From contig VXRJ01000014.1 of assembly GCA_009838525.1 (NCBI GenBank), positions 1 through 64,000 on the forward strand: a stretch of 64,000 nt of DNA. The letters are read 5' to 3'. This document shows positions 3,167 through 60,963 of the stretch, piece after piece. Under the pieces are notes generated by a model. The model was given only the letters and a program-made list of their open reading frames with translations, was not told the DNA's origin and did not search any database. This stretch comes from Acidobacteriota bacterium. GTDB taxonomy: Bacteria > Acidobacteriota > Vicinamibacteria > Vicinamibacterales > UBA8438. Positions within the stretch are counted from its first letter, which is position 1; each line of letters begins with the position of its first letter. The position numbers and the translations under genes were made by a program.

Positions 3167-4446
3167 CGACGCACGGCGGGGTCGCAACGGCGGCGTCCCC
3201 CGGCCGGCCCGATGCCGGCGCGTCCTGGCCGGGGCGCTTCGAGACCGTCGCGTGGTGGCTGCTGCCGCTGTTCGTCTTCGCGCTGCCGCTCTCCGTCGCC
3301 GCCTCCGGCATCCTCCTGACCGCGCTGCTCGCGGTCTGGGCCGGCCTGCTCGTCACGGCGGGCGAACGTCCTGCCGTCCCGGCGTTCTTCTGGCCGCTCG
3401 CCGCGTATTCGGGCTGGACGCTCGCAACCGTTCCCTTCTCGATCGACCCGACCGCCAGCCTCATCGAATCGCGCGAGGTGCTGCTCTACCTCACCGTGCC
3501 GGTCGTCTACCGCCTGGCCCGGGGGGATCGCGCCTGGTCGATGACGAACGTGGTGCTCACCGCGGGCGCGCTCACCGCGGCGATCGGGATCGTGCAGTAC
3601 GGCATCCTGGAATTCGACAACCTCGGGCGCCGGCCGAGCGGCTCGATGGGCCACTACATGACGTACGCCGGCCTGCTGATGCTCGCCCTCGTCGTCGCCG
3701 TGTCGCGCGTCACGTTCGGCGCGCGCGACCGCCTCTGGGCCGCCCTGATGCTGCCGGCGCTCATGGCCGCGCTGGCGGTTACGCTGACGCGCGGGGCCTG
3801 GATCGGCGCTCTCGCCGCCGTCGGCCTCCTGCTCGTGCTCCGCGACCGCCGCCTGCTCCTCGTCGCGCCGGTCGCCGTGCTCGTCGTCTACTTCGTGGCG
3901 CCGGCGACGGTCACCGACCGCGCGCTCTCGATCTTCGATCCAGCGAACCCGACGAACCGCGACCGCGTCGCGATGTTCACGGTGGGCGCCGGCATGGTGC
4001 GCGACCACCCCGTCACCGGAGTCGGCCCGGAAATGGTGCTGCGGCGCTACGCCGAGTACCGCCCCGACAATGCCGTGAACGACGTGAATCCGCACCTGCA
4101 CAACGTTCCGATGCAGATTGCCGCCGAGCGCGGGCTGCCGGCCCTGGCGCTCTGGGCCTGGTTCGTTGTCGCCATCTCCCGCGACCTGGCCCGGCGCTTC
4201 CGCCGGCCGGAGACCCGCACGCTCGCCGCCGCGGGCCTCGCCGCGGTGGCCGCCATGCTCGTGGCCGGCCAGTTCGAATACAACTTCGGCGACTCGGAGT
4301 TCCTCCTCCTCTTTCTCGTGTTGATAACGCTGCCCGCCGCTAGGGAAGCCGGTCTGGAGACCGGCGAACCCGCTGGTGCGCCGGCCTCCAGGCCGGCATC
4401 TTCCGACCCGGAATCCGCGGACACAACGGTGTCCGACCCGCACTAA
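3163..4446 (+). CDS. O-antigen ligase / Wzy-type polymerase family membrane protein
   Basis: 427 residues, start set by the ATGA overlap with the Trm112-like gene. Roughly ten to twelve hydrophobic segments surround a large periplasmic loop with the Wzy_C/WaaL signature, including LTLTRGAWIGALAAVG, GVGPEMVLRRYAEYRP and HPHLHNVPMQIAAERG. The His in NPHLHN and the Arg in TRGAW are typical functional residues of WaaL/Wzy enzymes, which join or polymerise undecaprenyl-linked glycans on the periplasmic side. Whether it is ligase or polymerase cannot be decided from sequence. The last ~35 residues (after LITLPAAREAG) are low-complexity and encoded by two REP palindromes (4348-4365, 4380-4397), so the native C-terminus has probably been extended by REP insertion. 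The next gene begins 4 bp after the stop. Confidence 0.85.
   Translation: MTTHGGVATAASPGRPDAGASWPGRFETVAWWLLPLFVFALPLSVAASGILLTALLAVWAGLLVTAGERPAVPAFFWPLAAYSGWTLATVPFSIDPTASLIESREVLLYLTVPVVYRLARGDRAWSMTNVVLTAGALTAAIGIVQYGILEFDNLGRRPSGSMGHYMTYAGLLMLALVVAVSRVTFGARDRLWAALMLPALMAALAVTLTRGAWIGALAAVGLLLVLRDRRLLLVAPVAVLVVYFVAPATVTDRALSIFDPANPTNRDRVAMFTVGAGMVRDHPVTGVGPEMVLRRYAEYRPDNAVNDVNPHLHNVPMQIAAERGLPALALWAWFVVAISRDLARRFRRPETRTLAAAGLAAVAAMLVAGQFEYNFGDSEFLLLFLVLITLPAAREAGLETGEPAGAPASRPASSDPESADTTVSDPH
4348..4397. repeat. inverted pair of REP palindromes inside the ligase 3' end
   Basis: Two 18-bp hairpins with 8-bp arms: GCCGGTCT-GG-AGACCGGC (4348-4365) and GCCGGCCTCCAGGCCGGC (4380-4397). They lie in opposite orientation (GG loop versus CC loop), like a two-REP BIME. 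They are read in frame as [17 protein letters not shown]. The same core recurs around the RAYT gene at 22.9 kb. Confidence 0.85.
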
Positions 4447-17705: not shown

Positions 17706-19427
17706 TCAGTGGCGGAAGTGCCGCCGCCCGGTGAGGACCATGGCGAGGTTCTGTTCGTCCGCCGCGGCAATCACGTCGGCGTCGCGCTTCGAGCCGCCGG
17801 GCTGCGCGATGGCGGTCGCGCCGGCCTGAGCGATTGCGTCGAGCCCGTCCCGGAACGGGAAGAACGCATCCGACGCGGCAACGGTCCCCCGCAGGTCGGC
17901 GCTGGCCTGGGCGGCCGCCTTCATCGTGGCGACGTTCACCGCGTCGACGCGGCTCATCTGCCCTGCCCCCACTGCCACAGCCCGGCCCGCGCGTGCGAAG
18001 ATGACGGTGTTTGACTTCACGTGCGCGCAGACCCGCCAGGCGAAGCGAAGCGCCTCCCACTCGTCAGCGGTAGGCGCGCGCTTGGTGACGACGCGGATCG
18101 GCTCGCCCGGCACCACCTCGACACCATCGGCCCAAGGCTCGGCGCACTCGACGACGCCGTCCCGCTTCTGGACCAGCCACGCCCCCATGATGGAGCGGAC
18201 GTCGCGCTGCCCCGCATCGCCGCCGCCATTGAAGTCGGCCACCACGAGGCGAAGGTTCTTCTTTTTCGACAGCACGCCGCGCGCCTCGTCGTCGACGGCC
18301 GGGGCAATGACGCATTCGATGAACGTCTCGGCGATGGCCGCCGCCGTCGCGCCGTCGAGCGGCCGGTTCAGACCGACGATGCCGCCGAAGGCCGACAGCG
18401 GGTCCACCTCGCGCGCCGTGACGTACGCGTCGCGCAAGCTGCCGGCCGTCGCCACGCCGCACGGGTTGGTGTGCTTGATGACCGCGGCGGCGGGCTCGTC
18501 GAACTCCAGCGCGAGGCGCGCCGCGGCGTCGAGGTCAAGCAGGTTCGTGAACGACAGCGCCTTCCCCTGCAGGACCTGCGCGCTGCCGAAACCCCAGTCC
18601 CGGTCGGCGTAGAGCGCCGCCGCCTGGTGCGGGTTCTCGCCGTAGCGGAGGTCGCGCAGCTTGGCCGCGCGGACGTGCAGGAGGTCCGGGGCCACACCGT
18701 CCAGGGTCAACGCCGACCGCTCGAACGACGCGCCATCCGTCTCCACCGCGTCGAGCGCGGCGGCGATCGTGGCGTCGTACTCGGCGGTGTGTGCGAACGC
18801 CTTGCGCGCCAGCTCGAAGCGGAAACGCCGCGCGGCGGCCTCGCTGCCCCGTGCGCCGCTCGGTTCGCCGGCCGGTTCGCCGCTCGGTTCGCCGGCCGGT
18901 GCGCCGGCCGGTTCGCCGGCCTCCAGGCCGGCATTCCGGCTGGCATTCCCTCCGGCATTCCGATCAAGCAACTCGAGCACTCGCCTGTAATCGCCTGGGT
19001 CGACGACGATCAGCACATCCTCGAAGTTCTTGGCGGCCGCGCGCACCATGCTGGGGCCCCCGATGTCGATCTGCTCGATCAGCTCGTCGACCGGCGCATC
19101 CGACGACGCCGTCTGCGCAAACGGATACAGGTTCACGACGACCAGGTCGATCGGCGTGATCCCCTGCCCGGCGATGGCCGCCAGATCGTCCGGCCGGCCG
19201 CGGCGGGCCAGGATGCCGCCGTGCACGGCCGGGTGCAGCGTCTTCACCCGGCCGTCCATCATCTCCGGGAAGCCGGTCACGTCCGAGACGCTCGTGACCG
19301 CGAGACCGGCGTCCGCGAGCGCGCGCGCCGTCCCGCCGGTGGAAACCAGTTGCACGCCCCGATCGATCAGGCCGCGGGCGAAGTCGATCAGGCCCGTCTT
19401 GTCCGAAACACTCAGCAGCGCACGCAT
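17706..19427 (-). CDS. purH: bifunctional AICAR formyltransferase / IMP cyclohydrolase
   Basis: 573 residues from [20 protein letters not shown]. It catalyses the last two steps of IMP synthesis: formyl transfer to AICAR and ring closure. N-terminal MGS-like/IMP cyclohydrolase domain ([20 protein letters not shown], residues 47-66) and C-terminal AICARFT domain with KHTNPCGVA and the final RHFRH-type end are intact. Compared with the usual ~520 residues it is longer, and the excess is a low-complexity stretch at residues ~157-195 (Ala/Gly/Glu/Pro-rich, with [16 protein letters not shown]) encoded by a REP palindrome plus degenerate 12-bp tandem units. This sits in the linker just after [12 protein letters not shown], before [13 protein letters not shown] longer upstream start is possible but would run into the hypothetical gene upstream. 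Confidence 0.97.
18843..18959. repeat. REP element and degenerate 12-bp tandem units inside purH
   Basis: A complete REP core GCCGGCCTCCAGGCCGGC occupies 18915-18932. Beside it, 18850-18914 is built of about five degenerate units of the type GGTTCGCCGGCC. The block keeps the purH reading frame and encodes the low-complexity linker. Confidence 0.85.
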
Positions 19428-19956: not shown

Positions 19957-21369
19957 ATGCCCTCTCACGCACGCGTCATTCCGTCGATCGAACTGCTCCG
20001 GCAGCGGGAGGAAGTTCGGGACCTCGAGGCGCGCTACGGACGCGAAGCGACACTCGCGGCGCTCCGTGAGGAAAGCTCCGCGCTGCGCGAACGGCTGCTC
20101 GCCGGTCCAGTGGATGGCCAGCCCGGCGCGGGACCGGCCGACCCCGAGGCCGCCGCCACCGCCATTCTGGCCGGTCTCGAACCACGCCTGCGGGCCGCCC
20201 TCGCGCCATCGCTGCAACCCGTCATCAACGCCACCGGCGTCATCGTCCATACGAACCTGGGGCGCGCACCGCTCGCCCGGCCGGCGATGGACCGCATCGC
20301 CGAGGTGGCCTCGGGTTACGCCAACCTGGAATATGACCTCGCGGCGGGGACGCGCGGGTCCCGCACGGTGCATGCGGCGACGCTGCTGGCGCAACTGACC
20401 GGGGCGGAGGCGGCGGTCGTCGTGAACAACAACGCCGCCGCCGTGCTGCTGGTGCTGGCTGCGCTCGCGGAAGGCCGCGAAGCGATCATCTCGCGCGGCG
20501 AGTTGGTGGAAATCGGAGGGGGCTTCCGGATCCCCGACGTGATGCGGCAGTCCGGCGCGATCCTGCGCGAGGTGGGCACCACCAACCGGACACGCGCGGC
20601 GGACTATGCGGCGGCCATCAGCGAACGGACGGCGCTGATCCTTCGGGTCCACCCCTCCAACTTCCGTATCGAAGGCTTCACCGAGCGACCGGCGCTCGCG
20701 GAGTTGGCGCAACTGGGTGCGCGGTTCGACGTCCCCCTGGTGGAGGATCTCGGCAGCGGGCTCCTGGCCAGCGAGGTGACCGCGGGAGCAGTCGGCGATG
20801 AGCCAACCGTGGGCGCCAGCATCGACGCGGGGGTCAGCGTCTGCACGTTCAGCGGCGACAAGCTGCTCGGCGGACCCCAGGCGGGAATCATCATCGGGCA
20901 GCGGACGCTCCTCGACCGAATCCGGCGCCACCCACTGATGCGTGCGCTGCGCGTCGACAAGCTGACCCTTGCCGCACTGGAAGCCACCCTCATCGAACAT
21001 GCCGTAGCGCGGGCCAGTCGCACCGTGCCGGTGACCCGGATCATCGCCACGCCGGTCGAGGAACTTGCTTCCCGGGCCAACGCCTTGCGCGCGCGCCTCA
21101 GCGGCGCAGCCGCCCTGCGCGTCTCCGTAGAAGCGAGCGACGCGGCCATCGGCGGCGGCAGCACGCCGGGGATAACCGTGGAGAGCCGCGCCCTCGTCGT
21201 CGCGGTGTCCGACCGGTCGGCCCGCAACCTCGCCGCCGCGCTGCGGGCCCACCAGCCACCGGTCATCGGCCGGGTCGCCGACGACACGCTCTGGCTGGAC
21301 CTCCGGACCGTGCTACCAGAGCAGGACGACGCCCTTGCGGCGGCACTGGTCAGGTCCGCCGGCCTCTAG
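19957..21369 (+). CDS. selA: L-seryl-tRNA(Sec) selenium transferase
   Basis: 470 residues from ATG 19957 (MPSHARVIPSIELLRQ). SelA is a PLP enzyme converting Ser-tRNA(Sec) to Sec-tRNA(Sec). Visible family features: QPVINATGVIVHTNLGRAPL (residues 87-106), YDLAAGTRGSR, the PLP-lysine motif FSGDKLLGGPQAG (Lys302) and VEDLGSGLL. Length matches the family. Its stop codon (TAG 21367-21369) lies inside a REP palindrome, so the final residues SAGL come from the repeat and the native end may have been replaced. No selB, selD or tRNA-Sec is present in the window, so the rest of the selenocysteine machinery must be elsewhere. Divergent from the hypothetical/purH pair. Confidence 0.95.
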   Translation: MPSHARVIPSIELLRQREEVRDLEARYGREATLAALREESSALRERLLAGPVDGQPGAGPADPEAAATAILAGLEPRLRAALAPSLQPVINATGVIVHTNLGRAPLARPAMDRIAEVASGYANLEYDLAAGTRGSRTVHAATLLAQLTGAEAAVVVNNNAAAVLLVLAALAEGREAIISRGELVEIGGGFRIPDVMRQSGAILREVGTTNRTRAADYAAAISERTALILRVHPSNFRIEGFTERPALAELAQLGARFDVPLVEDLGSGLLASEVTAGAVGDEPTVGASIDAGVSVCTFSGDKLLGGPQAGIIIGQRTLLDRIRRHPLMRALRVDKLTLAALEATLIEHAVARASRTVPVTRIIATPVEELASRANALRARLSGAAALRVSVEASDAAIGGGSTPGITVESRALVVAVSDRSARNLAAALRAHQPPVIGRVADDTLWLDLRTVLPEQDDALAAALVRSAGL

Positions 21370-21375
21370 GCCGGC
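21358..21375. repeat. REP palindrome forming the selA stop codon
   Basis: GCCGGCCT-CT-AGGCCGGC; the loop base change to CT creates TAG in the selA frame. Complete 8-bp arms. Confidence 0.85.
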
Positions 21376-21390
21376 CAATAAGCACGGTGC

Positions 21391-21445
21391 GCCGGCCTCC
21401 AGGCCGGCATGCCTTGCGTAATGGTGCGCCGGCCTCCAGGCCGGC
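21391..21445. repeat. two tandem REP palindromes between selA and nqrM
   Basis: Two identical 18-bp cores, 21391-21408 and 21428-21445, each preceded by GGTGC and 37 bp apart, in the same orientation. They form the spacer between the convergent selA and nqrM genes and could act as a bidirectional transcription stop. Confidence 0.85.
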
Positions 21446-21636: not shown

Positions 21637-21688
21637 TTCTCCAATCCTACACCCGTCATCATGCGACCACCGGTGCGCCAGCCGGTTC

Positions 21689-21706
21689 GCCGGCCTCCAG
21701 GCCGGC
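21689..21706. repeat. REP palindrome in the nqrM-apbE divergent spacer
   Basis: GCCGGCCTCCAGGCCGGC, preceded by a half-copy (GCCGGTTC) and followed by another half (GGCCGGCACTCC). It lies in the only promoter space available to both nqrM and apbE. Confidence 0.85.
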
Positions 21707-21757: not shown

Positions 21758-22792
21758 ATGACCCGACTCCTCTCCGCGGCCCTCCTCTTCTTCCTCGCCG
21801 CCTGCACCACCAACGACCTCCATGTGTTGGTACAGGGCGGGACGCACAGGTACCGCGGCGACACCATGGGCACCACCTACGAGGTGACGGTCGTCGCGGA
21901 CCCGCAATACAACGTCCGCTTCCCCTTCCTCCACGCCGCCATCGCGATGACCCTCGAGCGCATAGAAGCCGCCATGTCCACGTGGCGACCGGAGTCCGAG
22001 TTGAGCCGCTTCAACCTCGCCGACACGACCGATCCGTTCTCCGTCTCGCCGGACACGGCGACCGTCTTCCAGCACGCCCTGACCGTAGGCGCGCTGACGG
22101 GTGGCGCGTTCGACATCACGGTCGGCCCGCTGGTCGATGCCTGGGGATTCGGCCCGCCGGGACATCCTCCCGCCGCCCCGTCTGCGGCGGATCTCACGCG
22201 CCTCCGCGAGCAAGTTGGTTGGGAGCGACTCGCGGTGGACGCCGAAGCGTCGACCATCCGTAAACTAACGCCCGGCGCCTCGGTGGACCTCTCGGCGCTA
22301 GCAAAGGGCTACGCGGTGGACCAGGTGGCCGAACTGCTGGACGCCGAGGGCTTCACCAACTACCTCGTCGAAGTGGGCGGCGAAGTGCGCGCCGCCGGCC
22401 GCAACGCCCGCGGCGAACCTTGGCGGGTCGGGATTGAACGCCCGTCCGCCGGACCGCCCACCGTTTACCGAACCGTGGAGCTCAGCGGGCAGGCCCTCGC
22501 CACTTCTGGCGATTACCGCAACACCTACGTTCTCGACGGACAGCGCGTCTCGCACACCATCGATCCCCGCACCGGCCAGCCCGTGACGCACGCGCTCGCC
22601 TCGGTCAGCGTCATCGATCCGCTGTGCGTCCGGGCTGACGCCCTCGCGACCGGACTGATGGTCCTCGGCCCGGACGACGGCTTCGCCCTGGCCACAGAAC
22701 AGGGCTGGCCGGCGCTGTTCCTGGTTCGCCGCCCCGACGGCACGCTGGAAGAACTCACCACACCAACCTGGGCTCAGTTCAGCGCGCAATAG
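21758..22792 (+). CDS. apbE: ApbE-family FMN transferase lipoprotein
   Basis: 344 residues from ATG 21758. Signal peptide with lipobox LAAC (Cys about 14), so lipid-anchored in the periplasm. Family motifs: GDTMGTTYEVTV, ERIEAAMSTWRPESELSRFN, FDITVGPLVDAWGF, VDLSALAKGYAVDQ, LVEVGGEVRAAGRN and SHTIDPRTGQPV. ApbE transfers FMN from FAD onto Thr of NqrB and NqrC; target motifs are present in the NqrB and NqrC encoded downstream. Adjacent to nqrM (divergent) and close to nqrBCDEF, which makes an NQR-maturation role very likely. Three REPs follow the stop codon. Confidence 0.95.
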   Translation: MTRLLSAALLFFLAACTTNDLHVLVQGGTHRYRGDTMGTTYEVTVVADPQYNVRFPFLHAAIAMTLERIEAAMSTWRPESELSRFNLADTTDPFSVSPDTATVFQHALTVGALTGGAFDITVGPLVDAWGFGPPGHPPAAPSAADLTRLREQVGWERLAVDAEASTIRKLTPGASVDLSALAKGYAVDQVAELLDAEGFTNYLVEVGGEVRAAGRNARGEPWRVGIERPSAGPPTVYRTVELSGQALATSGDYRNTYVLDGQRVSHTIDPRTGQPVTHALASVSVIDPLCVRADALATGLMVLGPDDGFALATEQGWPALFLVRRPDGTLEELTTPTWAQFSAQ

Positions 22793-22796
22793 GTCC

Positions 22797-22888
22797 GCCG
22801 GCCTCCAGGCCGGCATTCCGTAGGTACCGGTCCGCCGGCCTCCAGGCCGGCATTCCGTAGGTACCGGTCCGCCGGCCTGCAGGCCGGC
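22797..22888. repeat. left REP array of the RAYT locus (three tandem REPs)
   Basis: Three palindromes, 22797-22814, 22834-22851 and 22871-22888, all in the same orientation with a 37-bp period and near-identical spacers (containing CATTCCGTAGGTACCGG). The third has loop GC. The array ends 40 bp before the RAYT start codon. Confidence 0.9.
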
Positions 22889-22928
22889 GACCCCTTCCTG
22901 GCACCAGTCTTGCGTACGTCTCGCCTGC

Positions 22929-23555
22929 ATGAGAGCAACAATGCAAGGCAGCGGTCCCGCCCGTGGGCGCCAGCTTGCAATCGGCTCCGGACACCTCGCG
23001 TGGCACTCGCGCGGCTACCACCCGCACCTTGACGCAGCCTACGTCACTCAGCACATCACCTTTCGTCTCGCCGACAGCGTGCCCGCATCCCTGATCAACC
23101 GGTGGCGCGCCGCTCTGCACGGCGACCGCGCCGCAGAGATGCACCGGCGGATCGCCAAGTACGAGGACGCCGGCCGTGGAGCGTGCCATCTGCGACGCCC
23201 CGAGATCGCCAGGCTTGTTCAGGATGCCCTGCTCCGGTTCGATCGCAAGCGCTACCGACTGCTCGACTGGTGCGTCATGCCGAACCATGTCCACGTGCTG
23301 ATCGAACAGGCGGCGGGCGTACCGCTGCACAAAATCGTGCACTCGTGGAAGGGATACACCTCGCGCCAGGCCAACGCCCAGCTCAACCGCAACGGAGCGT
23401 TCTGGATGCGAGATTACTTCGACCGCTATGTGCGTTCGCCAGAGCAATTCAACGCCATCCGGTACTACATTCAGTGGAATCCGGTCCGCGCGGGACTGTG
23501 CGACAGACCGGAGCATTGGCCGTGGTCGTCAGCGGGGTGGAGAGCGAAGCGGTGA
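22929..23555 (+). CDS. REP-associated tyrosine transposase (RAYT, Y1/HUH superfamily)
   Basis: 208 residues from ATG 22929 (or 22941). The N-terminal part has QHITFRLADSVPASLINRWR, typical of RAYT proteins, then LLDWCVMPNHVHVLIEQ with the HUH histidine pair (His120, His122), and FDRYVRSPEQFNAIRYYIQW followed by NPVRAGL, which contains candidate catalytic tyrosines and the usual C-terminal NPVxAGL signature. RAYTs are single-copy, domesticated relatives of IS200/IS605 transposases that nick REP hairpins and are thought to spread them. Here the gene is bordered by three REPs on the left and an inverted REP plus half-REP array on the right. Length is in the normal range with no visible disruption. 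Confidence 0.9.
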   Translation: MRATMQGSGPARGRQLAIGSGHLAWHSRGYHPHLDAAYVTQHITFRLADSVPASLINRWRAALHGDRAAEMHRRIAKYEDAGRGACHLRRPEIARLVQDALLRFDRKRYRLLDWCVMPNHVHVLIEQAAGVPLHKIVHSWKGYTSRQANAQLNRNGAFWMRDYFDRYVRSPEQFNAIRYYIQWNPVRAGLCDRPEHWPWSSAGWRAKR

Positions 23556-23568
23556 TTGGTGTTGATCT

Positions 23569-23620
23569 GCCGGCCTAGAGGCCGGCGGACCATGTGTACC
23601 GTGCCGGCCTGGAGGCCGGC
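23569..23620. repeat. right REP pair of the RAYT locus
   Basis: Two palindromes: 23569-23586 (loop AG) and 23603-23620 (loop GG). The second is in the opposite orientation to the left array, so the RAYT gene is bracketed by inverted REPs. Confidence 0.85.
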
Positions 23621-23716
23621 GCACCGTGGGGAACGTTGAGGCCGGCGCACCGTGGGGAACGTTGAGGCCGGCGCACCGTGGGGAACGTTGAGGCCGGCGC
23701 ACCTTGGGGAACGTGG
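23613..23716. repeat. 26-bp tandem array of half-REPs
   Basis: Four units of 26 bp start at 23613, 23639, 23665 and 23691. Each begins AGGCCGGCGCACC and continues to GGGGAACGTTG; the first three are identical and the fourth has two changes. Each unit is one REP arm plus its flank; the array ends 16 bp before the nqrF stop codon (convergent side). Confidence 0.9.
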
Positions 23717-23732
23717 AGACCGGCGGGGGCGC

Positions 23733-24959
23733 CTACCCGAAGTCGTCGAAGAGGATGTTGTCCCGCTCCACGCCAAGGCTGTCGAGCATGCCCATGCACG
23801 CCGTGAGCATCATCGGGGGCCCGCAGATGTAGTACTCGACATCCTCCGGCGCGGGATGGTCCTTGAGGTAGTTGTCGTACAGAACCTGGTGGATGAAGCC
23901 GGTGAGGCCGTCCCAGTTGTCTTCGGGAAGCGCGTCGGACAGCGCGAGGTGCCACTCGAAGTTGTCGTTCTCGGCTGCGATCCGGTCGAAGTCGTCGATG
24001 TAGAACGCTTCCCGCAGGCTGCGCGCGCCGTACCAGAAACTGACCTTGCGCCTGGTGTTGATGCGCCGGAACTGATCGAAGATGTGCGACCGCATCGGGG
24101 CCATGCCGGCGCCGCCCCCGATGAACACCATCTCGGCGTCGGTGTCCTTCGCGAAGAACTCGCCGAACGGGCCGGCGATGGTCACGTCGTCGCCCGGCTT
24201 CAGGCTGAAGATGTAGCCGGTCATCTTGCCGGGCGGCGTCCCCTCCGGCGCGCGCGGGGGCGGCGAGGCGATCCGGATGTTGAGCATGATGATGCCCTTC
24301 TCTTCCGGGTAGTTCGCCATCGAGTAGGCCCGCGTCACCGGCTCGTCGACCATAGCCGTGTAGCGCCACAGGTTGAACTTGTCCCAGTCGTCGCGGTACT
24401 CCTCCTCGACGTCGTAGTCGCGGTAGTCGTACGCCCCCTCCGGCGCCTCGATCTGGATGTAGCCGCCGGCCCGGAACGGCACGTCCTCGCCCTTCGGCAG
24501 CTCGAGGATCAGCTCCTTGATGAACGTGGCGACGTTGTGGTTCGAGCGCACCTTGCAGGTCCACTGGCGGATGTCGAAGATCTCCGCCGGGATCTCGATC
24601 TCCATGTCCTGCTTCACCTTCACCTGGCAGGACAGCCGCACGCCGCCCCGTTCCTCCCCCCGGCTGAGGTGGCTCCGTTCGGTCGGCAGCACGGCGCCGC
24701 CCCCGTCGCAGACCGTCACCTTGCAGACGCCGCAGCTTCCCTTCCCGCCGCAGGCCGACGGCACGAACAGCTTGTTGTCGGCCAGCGTGCCGAGCAGCGT
24801 GCCGCCGGCCGCCGTGCGTAGCGCCTTGTCAGGGTCGCCGTTGACGGTAATGGTCACCTCGCCCGTTGCGACGAGCTGCCGCCGCGCCATCATCAGTAGG
24901 CCGACCAGCGACACGATGACGAACGTGAACATCGCGACGCCGAGGGTGACAGTAACCAT
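23733..24959 (-). CDS. nqrF: Na+-translocating NADH:quinone reductase subunit F
   Basis: 408 residues from ATG 24959 ([18 protein letters not shown]); the longer frame upstream is a shadow of nqrE. NqrF is the NADH-oxidising entry subunit. One N-terminal helix, then a [2Fe-2S] ferredoxin domain with Cys70, Cys76, Cys79 and Cys111 ([16 protein letters not shown] and RLSCQV), an FAD-binding domain with [11 protein letters not shown], and an NADH domain with [18 protein letters not shown] and YYICGPPMM, ending DDFG. The cysteine spacing and total length are the classical ones. It is the last gene of nqrBCDEF, 17 bp after nqrE. The REP/RAYT locus follows. Confidence 0.97.
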
Positions 24960-24976
24960 GGCTCCTGCTGTGGCTC

Positions 24977-25594
24977 CTAGAGTTGCACTCCCGCAAACGC
25001 CATGAAGCCGATAGCCATCAGCCCCACCAGCATGAAGGTCAACCCGAGGCCGCGCAGGGCGGGCGGCGGGTTCGAGTAGCGCAGCCGCTCGCGGATGCCG
25101 GCAAGCGCGATGACGGCGAGCGCCCAGCCGATGCCGGAGCCGAGGCCGAAGACGGTGCTCTCGGCCAGCGTGTAGCTCCGCTCCACCATGAACAGCGACG
25201 CGCCCAGGATGGCGCAGTTGACGGCGATCAGCGGCAGGAAGATGCCGAGCGCGGCGTGGAGCGGCGGCGCGAAGCGGTCGAGGACCATCTCTACGATCTG
25301 CACCATCGCCGCGATGGTTCCGATGTAGGCGAGGAATCCGAGGAACGACAGGTCGTAGGCGGCCAGCGACGGATGCAGCCACGCCATCGCGCCCGGACTC
25401 AACATGTAGATGTAGATGAGGTTGTTCATCGGCACCGTGATCGTCAGGACGAAGATGACGGCGCCCCCCAGGCCGATGGCCGTCGTCACCTGGCGCGATA
25501 CGGCGAGGAACGAGCACATCCCCAGGAAGAAGGCGAGGGCCATGTTCTCGACGAACATCGACCGGATGGCCAGGCTGAGGTAGTGCTCCAGCAT
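24977..25594 (-). CDS. nqrE: Na+-translocating NADH:quinone reductase subunit E
   Basis: 205 residues from ATG 25594 ([20 protein letters not shown]). NqrE is a six-helix membrane subunit that together with NqrD holds an intramembrane iron centre. Family motifs [20 protein letters not shown], with the Cys of the iron site, and [17 protein letters not shown] are present; NCAILG carries the second Cys. Five bases separate it from the nqrD stop. The C-terminus ([19 protein letters not shown]) is normal. Confidence 0.97.
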
Positions 25595-60939: not shown

Positions 60940-60945
60940 CGGTGC

Positions 60946-60963
60946 GCCGGCCTCCGGGCCGGC
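60946..60963. repeat. REP palindrome between GT-C and GT9 genes
   Basis: GCCGGCCT-CC-GGGCCGGC with one arm mismatch and the usual GGTGC left flank. Occupies most of the 70-bp gap. Confidence 0.75.

Follow-up and report, generated by a model that had tools for sequence, protein, structure and literature searches.

A complete RAYT gene bracketed by inverted REP hairpins lies in a 64,000-nucleotide stretch of an acidobacterial genome (hereafter the window, meaning the whole stretch of DNA analyzed), and members of the same RAYT subfamily, along with their own REPs, are nested in frame within protein-coding genes of related genomes. The locus in the window is very probably a REPtron, in which a single-copy HUH/tyrosine endonuclease acting on single-stranded DNA takes a REP hairpin as its substrate and spreads REPs and REPINs, and occasionally the whole block. 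What appears to be new here is a REPtron with a non-GTAG foot in the window and complete RAYTs nested in frame in its relatives; intragenic REPs as such are already known.

The RAYT gene and its flanking REPs

The RAYT/TnpAREP gene (22929-23555, plus strand) lies between apbE, on the same strand with its stop at 22792, and an nqrF-like gene on the minus strand (23733-25517). Its 208-aa product is recognized by the Pfam profile PF01797 (E=3.5e-12) and by the NCBIfam profile NF047646 (REP_Tyr_transpos), where its score of 89.4 bits exceeds the cut-off of 80; together with the ORF itself, these matches bear out the initial annotation, which had called a complete HUH-type RAYT gene here. The HUH motif reads NHVH (residues 119-122) and a single catalytic tyrosine, Y180, sits in the Y--NP motif YIQWNP. 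Across 21 aligned sequences there is no variation in the HUH motif, Y180, N184, or P185, nor in W159, D165, and R169, which on a motif-based reading of residue correspondence belong to the region with which the E. coli enzyme reads GTAG (its residues are those given in PMC6006769). By the same kind of reading, the equivalent of E. coli Gln95 is a methionine in the window RAYT and is variable among the aligned relatives. The AlphaFold2 model (pLDDT 80.5) finds as its top structural match 4er8 (Foldseek E=9.4e-8; TM 0.67 by target length), the E. coli TnpAREP bound to a REP hairpin, which is also the top PDB match by sequence profile (E=8.4e-11).

The catalytic motifs, the score above a curated cut-off, the TnpAREP fold, the copy number, the bracketing inverted REPs, and the high-copy dispersed REPs are all those of RAYT/TnpAREP, and the protein is accordingly classified here as a putative class 2 Y1 transposase of this family, with the cutting of single-stranded REPs as its predicted activity; such cleavage is established for the E. 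coli, Stenotrophomonas, and Marinomonas enzymes (PMC8266576). An ordinary low-copy IS200/IS605 insertion sequence would belong to the same HUH/Y1 superfamily, and the product does have a weak match to the IS200 profile NF033573. However, at 32 bits this match stays below the cut-off of 55 while the RAYT cut-off is passed, the tyrosine motif is Y--NP and not Y--Q, the neighboring ORFs include no tnpB, and the transposase is present as a single copy beside more than 100 non-coding hairpin copies, all of which leave an insertion sequence of that kind an extremely improbable account of the locus.

To the left of the gene stand three REPs of one orientation, as first described: their cores, at 22797, 22834, and 22871 on the plus strand, form a 37-bp tandem and all carry the foot GGTCC. 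The foot of the first REP (22792-22814) opens with a G that also ends the apbE stop codon TAG, the second (22829-22851) is its 37-bp tandem copy, and the third (22866-22888) has a G at the loop of the core. On the right, where the initial annotation had a single inverted REP followed by half-REPs, there are in fact two inverted REPs on the minus strand, at 23569-23591 (foot GGTCC, core variant CTCTAG) and 23603-23625 (foot GGTGC, core exact), whereas the half-REP array stands as reported. This array (23637-23726, minus strand) is built of GGTGCGCCGGCCTC units, each a foot plus 5' arm, repeated with a 26-bp period, three of them perfect (23642, 23668, and 23694) and a fourth decayed; half-sites number nine in the window against 1.07 expected.

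Over the entire window the 18-bp core, allowing up to three mismatches, gives 26 strand-hits against 0.66 expected (100 shuffles, maximum 4). Beyond 22797-23732 there are five exact cores (4380, 18915, 21391, 21428, and 21689) and four with one to three mismatches (21358, 60946, 4348, and 55125), so that an earlier count of at least eight further copies holds with the mismatched copies included but not for exact copies alone. Among them are plus-strand REPs in the selA-apbE intergenic region (21386-21408 and 21423-21445, both with foot GGTGC) and upstream of the apbE start (21684-21706, foot GGTTC), a pair with feet facing inward at 4348-4397 (a minus copy at 4348-4370 with two core mismatches and a plus copy at 4375-4397), and a plus-strand REP with one mismatch at 60941-60963 (foot GGTGC). 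Another plus-strand REP lies at the end of selA (21353-21375) and provides, through its loop variant CTCTAG, the TAG at which the selA ORF stops; with CTCCAG, as in an unmutated REP, this position would be read through.

The REP family and its foot

In the genome (4.29 Mb, 97% complete; the window is on contig 14), PF01797 and NF047646 each match once, and both matches are the window RAYT. With this as the sole RAYT of a 97%-complete genome, the Pfam and NCBIfam profiles turned up no further RAYT whose REPs would match better, in keeping with the initial annotation, which had tied the REPs to this one enzyme. The core with at most one mismatch occurs 63+51 = 114 times genome-wide, against 0+0 for the reversed control pattern; at up to two mismatches the counts rise to 143+132, with the near-palindrome possibly matching on both strands. 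Each of 27 genomes of the same family has 0-4 copies of the core, all 27 are without this RAYT subfamily, and the subfamily is present in 2 of 162 genomes of the order, so that both the RAYT and the REPs are peculiar to the lineage. The core is 83% GC, and GC-rich palindromes might be thought to recur by chance in a GC-rich genome; yet the window excess over shuffles, the empty reversed control, the foot carried by nearly all copies (see below), and the scarcity of the core in related genomes reduce the probability of this reading to a negligible one, and the shuffles and the reversed-pattern control refute it.

The anatomy of the REP was read from 126 distinct genome copies with their flanks, i.e., the stretches around REP copies, and has the form GGT[G/C/T]C + GCCGGCCTCCAGGCCGGC + A. 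The foot is GGTGC in 82 copies, GGTCC in 24, and GGTTC in 12, which places GTGC, GTCC, or GTTC at the base of the hairpin in 118/126 (~94%). The hairpin directly follows, as the exact GCCGGCCTCCAGGCCGGC in 96 copies and the variant GCCGGCGTCCACGCCGGC in 16, and an A comes next in 112 of the 126. Of the flanks first proposed for the core, GGTGC on the left is thus confirmed as the commonest foot, but ATTCC on the right reduces to its first A, which alone is conserved. Neighboring copies form 15 inverted pairs with feet outward, 22 tandem pairs, and two pairs with feet inward. The feet-out pairs, or REPINs, have spacers of 8-19 nt, several of them of the AAGAGAACAACAGTCGAT type, linking a CCTCCAGG hairpin to a CGTCCACG hairpin. 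A derivation of the REPIN from the REPtron by internal deletion finds no support in the window genome, as the common AAGAGAACAACAGTCGAT-like spacer mismatches the sequence just inside the REPs of the window REPtron.

Half-REPs favor the foot side of full REPs (34/126, against 6/125 on the 3' side, with flanks containing a full REP excluded), and their foot-to-foot distances peak at 12-13 nt. Tandem half-REPs consisting of foot plus 5' arm, with a period of 12-13 or 26 nt, lie on the foot side at 23637-23726 and 18881-18909 of the window and at many copies elsewhere in the genome (L002, L013, L106, L123, and L124); our guess is that half-REPs were formed by slippage in hairpin replication.

Relatives of the window RAYT with 37-56% identity (tblastn) occur in Acidobacteriota, Verrucomicrobia, Bacteroidales, Chthonomonadales, and others. 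The hairpin arms differ in almost every genome or lineage, and the 5' foot GG[A/T]NC is common to the subfamily (GGAGC 34, GGTGC 20, GGAAC 20, GGACC 11, GGTCC 5, GGTAC 4, and others). Hairpins with feet outward are found on both sides at 42 of 63 RAYTs; in G031, the one order-mate of the window genome with a RAYT of the subfamily (49% identical), they are inverted pairs of GGATC-GCCGGGCTCCAGCCCGGC and GGATC-GCCACGCTCCAGCGTGGC. The published feet are GT[AG]G, CGTC, and CnGA (PMC6006769, PMC3733652), which makes GG[A/T]NC, with G[T/A]NC at the hairpin base, a separate foot. The earlier proposal of a distinct REP class therefore survives as to the class, but the reason given for it, the GC-rich 8-bp arms, does not, since the arms vary by genome and it is the foot that is shared. 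With GTGC, GTCC, or GTTC in the great majority of copies, the window REPs fall outside the GTAG super-family (foot GT[AG]G), and their foot also differs from that of the CGTC super-family; the class 3 TnpA of Planctomycetes and Acidobacteria combine CnGA with Y----Q, in contrast to GGTNC and Y--NP here.

The closest described parallels are the TnpAREP REPtrons of E. coli and Stenotrophomonas (class 2 of Quentin 2018; groups 2 and 3 of Corneloup 2021), which share with the window locus a single-copy HUH enzyme with Y--NP, inverted REPs to either side of it, some 100 REPs with inverted pairs among them, and the fold of 4er8 as best match. They differ in that the foot of the subfamily is GG[A/T]NC (GTGC, GTCC, or GTTC at the hairpin base in the window genome) and not GT[AG]G, a methionine occupies the Gln95 position, the window RAYT has an N-terminal extension of ~25 residues, and its relatives are nested in frame in genes; with a foot unlike GT[AG]G, the recognition rules of E. 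coli and Stenotrophomonas need not hold here. By motif and length, on which alone they were compared, TnpA subclasses 2.4 and 2.7 (Quentin 2018) resemble the window protein in size (near 194-213 aa), NHVH, YI--NP, and a patchy distribution across phyla, and subclass 2.4 members have REPs in frame inside the tnpA gene; however, their foot is GT[AG]G and they have W-Q where the window RAYT has W-M. The TIRYT genes and TIRtrons of Acidobacteria (Di Nocera 2013) are likewise acidobacterial tyrosine transposases with flanking inverted repeats, and TIRYT genes and members of our subfamily are possibly in part the same genes, although the repeats there were described as terminal inverted repeats unrelated to GTAG REPs, whereas here they are footed high-copy hairpins.

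Translated REPs and the spread of the family

The description of the window REPs as extragenic fails for those with cores at 18915, in frame in purH, and at 21358, the selA stop; some REPs of the window are translated within genes, which the initial annotation had overlooked. The purH insert (18831-18947, minus strand; ~39 aa) contains a REP at 18910-18932 and a half-REP array, its frame is open, and Pfam places the MGS domain on one side of it and AICARFT on the other. It is missing in 12/12 relatives, in which the MGS and AICARFT parts abut directly where both were matched. The half-REPs within purH (18881-18909) have a 12-nt period, which preserves the frame. Coding and intergenic calls for the 87 REP clusters of the genome come from a simple codon model, for which 19 window ORFs served as the training set, and 52 of the clusters received no class; hence, we rely solely on the in-frame cases that Pfam supports, five in number, namely purH and the genes for a glutamyl-tRNA synthetase, a DnaE-type polymerase, an Lhr-like helicase, and a Thy1/ThyX-like protein. 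The glutamyl-tRNA synthetase has three REPs in frame (L009 1020-2762, minus strand). Intragenic REPs in replication and repair genes have been described earlier (PMC3733652), and the in-frame REPs of the window genome are thus known biology in a new family. They are also akin to the Rickettsia palindromic elements (RPE), again palindromes in frame in replication and repair genes, and the genes listed with intragenic repeats by Di Nocera 2013 include DnaE2, UvrA, tRNA synthetases, and others; there, however, the short repeats alone are intragenic, with no transposase known for CGTC or RPE, whereas in the subfamily studied here complete transposase units are inserted.

As for how such REPs might spread, DNA that becomes single-stranded at replication would allow the REP to fold, and TnpAREP would then bind the hairpin together with its 5' foot GGTNC. 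Y180 would cut beside the folded REP, which would be rejoined elsewhere, and such cutting and rejoining would spread both single REPs and REPINs (two REPs with feet outward and a spacer of ~8-19 nt) and now and then move the entire REP-RAYT-REP block. Insertions would persist between convergent genes, at stop codons, and, if open in the host frame, in protein loops. The guide-sequence model (PMC8266576) predicts that cleavage would fall at GA or GC dinucleotides and not at CT. We infer an active enzyme, its cleavage site, and a direction of causation in which the RAYT spread the REPs; the enzyme of the window would then have seeded the REPs of its genome, as the initial annotation proposed.

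Alternatively, the REPs could be hairpins that are maintained by the host or spread independently, for instance as terminators or mRNA stabilizers, with the RAYT having landed among them. Many REPs do lie just past stop codons or between convergent genes (11/87 clusters called convergent and one divergent by the above codon model), and the REPs of another subfamily member are present in genomes without that RAYT: in the genus g81, where a nested RAYT discussed below has its own REP family, genomes lacking it still have 0-16 copies, and the mean of 9.0 copies in genomes with the RAYT against 4.3 in those without is a weak and not a significant excess (one-sided P=0.10). Against this, the family genomes lack the REPs and the RAYT subfamily alike, subfamily RAYTs are flanked on both sides by their own hairpin sequence, and REPs are found within the reading frames of essential genes, where a role as terminator or stabilizer makes no sense. 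We therefore regard host hairpins as an unlikely source of the family and retain the spread of REPs by the RAYT as the preferred reading. REP number goes with the presence of the RAYT across the family (0-4 copies in the 27 genomes lacking it, against 114) but not significantly so within g81.

REPtrons nested in genes of relatives

Among 396 genomes of the phylum, 17 of 91 subfamily matches lie in ORFs of 600-1811 aa, a count that covers in-frame nesting alone, and nearly all the remaining matches are in ORFs of ~180-350 aa. In the nested loci host domains flank the RAYT or are split by it (Pfam), and the reading frame is open across both REP blocks and the RAYT; insertion junctions are placed at the resolution allowed by diverged homologues. 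The hosts are acetyl-CoA synthetase (acs; L168 2172-5048(-), L169 2998-6174(-), L171 2456-5476(+), L172 2988-6050(-), L173 2666-5572(+), L194, and L196-L198); PriA, in the linker that precedes the helicase domain (L170 3339-6356(+) in G408 and L195 2544-5735(+) in G442); DUF1156 methylases (L062, L064, L071, and L181-L183); Eco57I/MmeI-type enzymes (L075 and L174-L177); another DNA methylase (L180); an EcoEI-type restriction subunit (EcoEI_R_C; L178 2201-5425(+)); an aminotransferase (L184); and a chorismate-binding enzyme (L079), all by Pfam. The occurrence of a RAYT with inverted REPs, in frame, at different sites of unrelated genes suggests that REP-RAYT-REP elements move as whole units and tolerate translation.

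In the genus g81, all 11 RAYTs with 55% identity or more to the nested type lie in priA or acs (one of them is cut off by the end of its contig), all its other RAYTs (at most 50% identical to that type) stand alone, and the nested clade spans 11 species. The nested state changes nine times on the tree, with at least five changes forced by well-supported branches, and has thus repeatedly arisen or been lost. Many nested carriers are metagenome-assembled genomes, and the nested RAYTs could in principle be assembly chimeras or dead insertions in pseudogenes; but the open frame through REP blocks and RAYT, the retention of the HUH and tyrosine motifs in almost all nested copies, the presence among the carriers of assemblies of 2-7 contigs (G174, G211, G149, G324, and G294), and the spread of the clade through so many species of one genus make such artifacts or relics very unlikely. 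The insert-bearing PriA of G408 likewise speaks against them, as it is the sole PriA found in that genome, 1006 aa long and with complete domains; five congeners checked each have a single PriA (ORFs of 754-883 aa) and no RAYT at that linker. Inteins or introns were also considered and rejected, as the 27 RAYT-bearing ORFs scanned with Pfam gave no hit to an intein/Hint family and eight nested loci had no match to Rfam RNA families or introns.

In an alignment of acs, peptides coded by REPINs (SADTPVRMSVASTRT...GGTGDADKSVRAP) occupy several loops, and some proteins have them in three loops at once. The RAYT occupies one of two loops, and the same loop holds a RAYT in one species and a REPIN in another, which is consistent with a single element that takes either form, REPIN or REPtron. 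An ATG is found within 45 codons of the domain in 12/26 nested against 34/37 stand-alone RAYTs (Fisher P=1e-4), and a few nested RAYTs have no start codon of any kind within that distance; hence at least some of them probably undergo translation solely within the host protein.

We lean, if only slightly, toward the view that these RAYTs are active mobile units which insert in frame in conserved proteins, the single-copy PriA included, and live as translated internal domains, the REPINs in the same loops being their shortened, non-autonomous descendants. If true, this would be a protein-tolerated transposon lifestyle that resembles that of inteins except that nothing is spliced; in-frame 'selfish' palindromes would then have a transposase, and the palindromic inserts in essential genes a candidate mover. 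RAYTs have been described as domesticated and housekeeping-like, with the mechanism of REP dissemination unresolved (PMC8266576). The subfamily offers natural evidence for movement of the REP-RAYT-REP unit, in that the same architecture recurs in unrelated genes and sister species have alleles that are empty or carry a REPIN, and the defined insertion sites in host genes make such movement testable. Our search, confined to the open-access literature, turned up no account of in-frame nesting of RAYTs; the main survey had set aside proteins longer than expected, taking them for fusions or errors of annotation (PMC6006769).

RAYTs are repeatedly nested in DNA methylases of the restriction and defense type, with two different DUF1156 sites across different phyla, and these have possibly traveled with mobile defense genes. 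In L178 the Y1_Tnp domain is below threshold and the tyrosine motif was not found, possibly marking this as a decaying nested copy.
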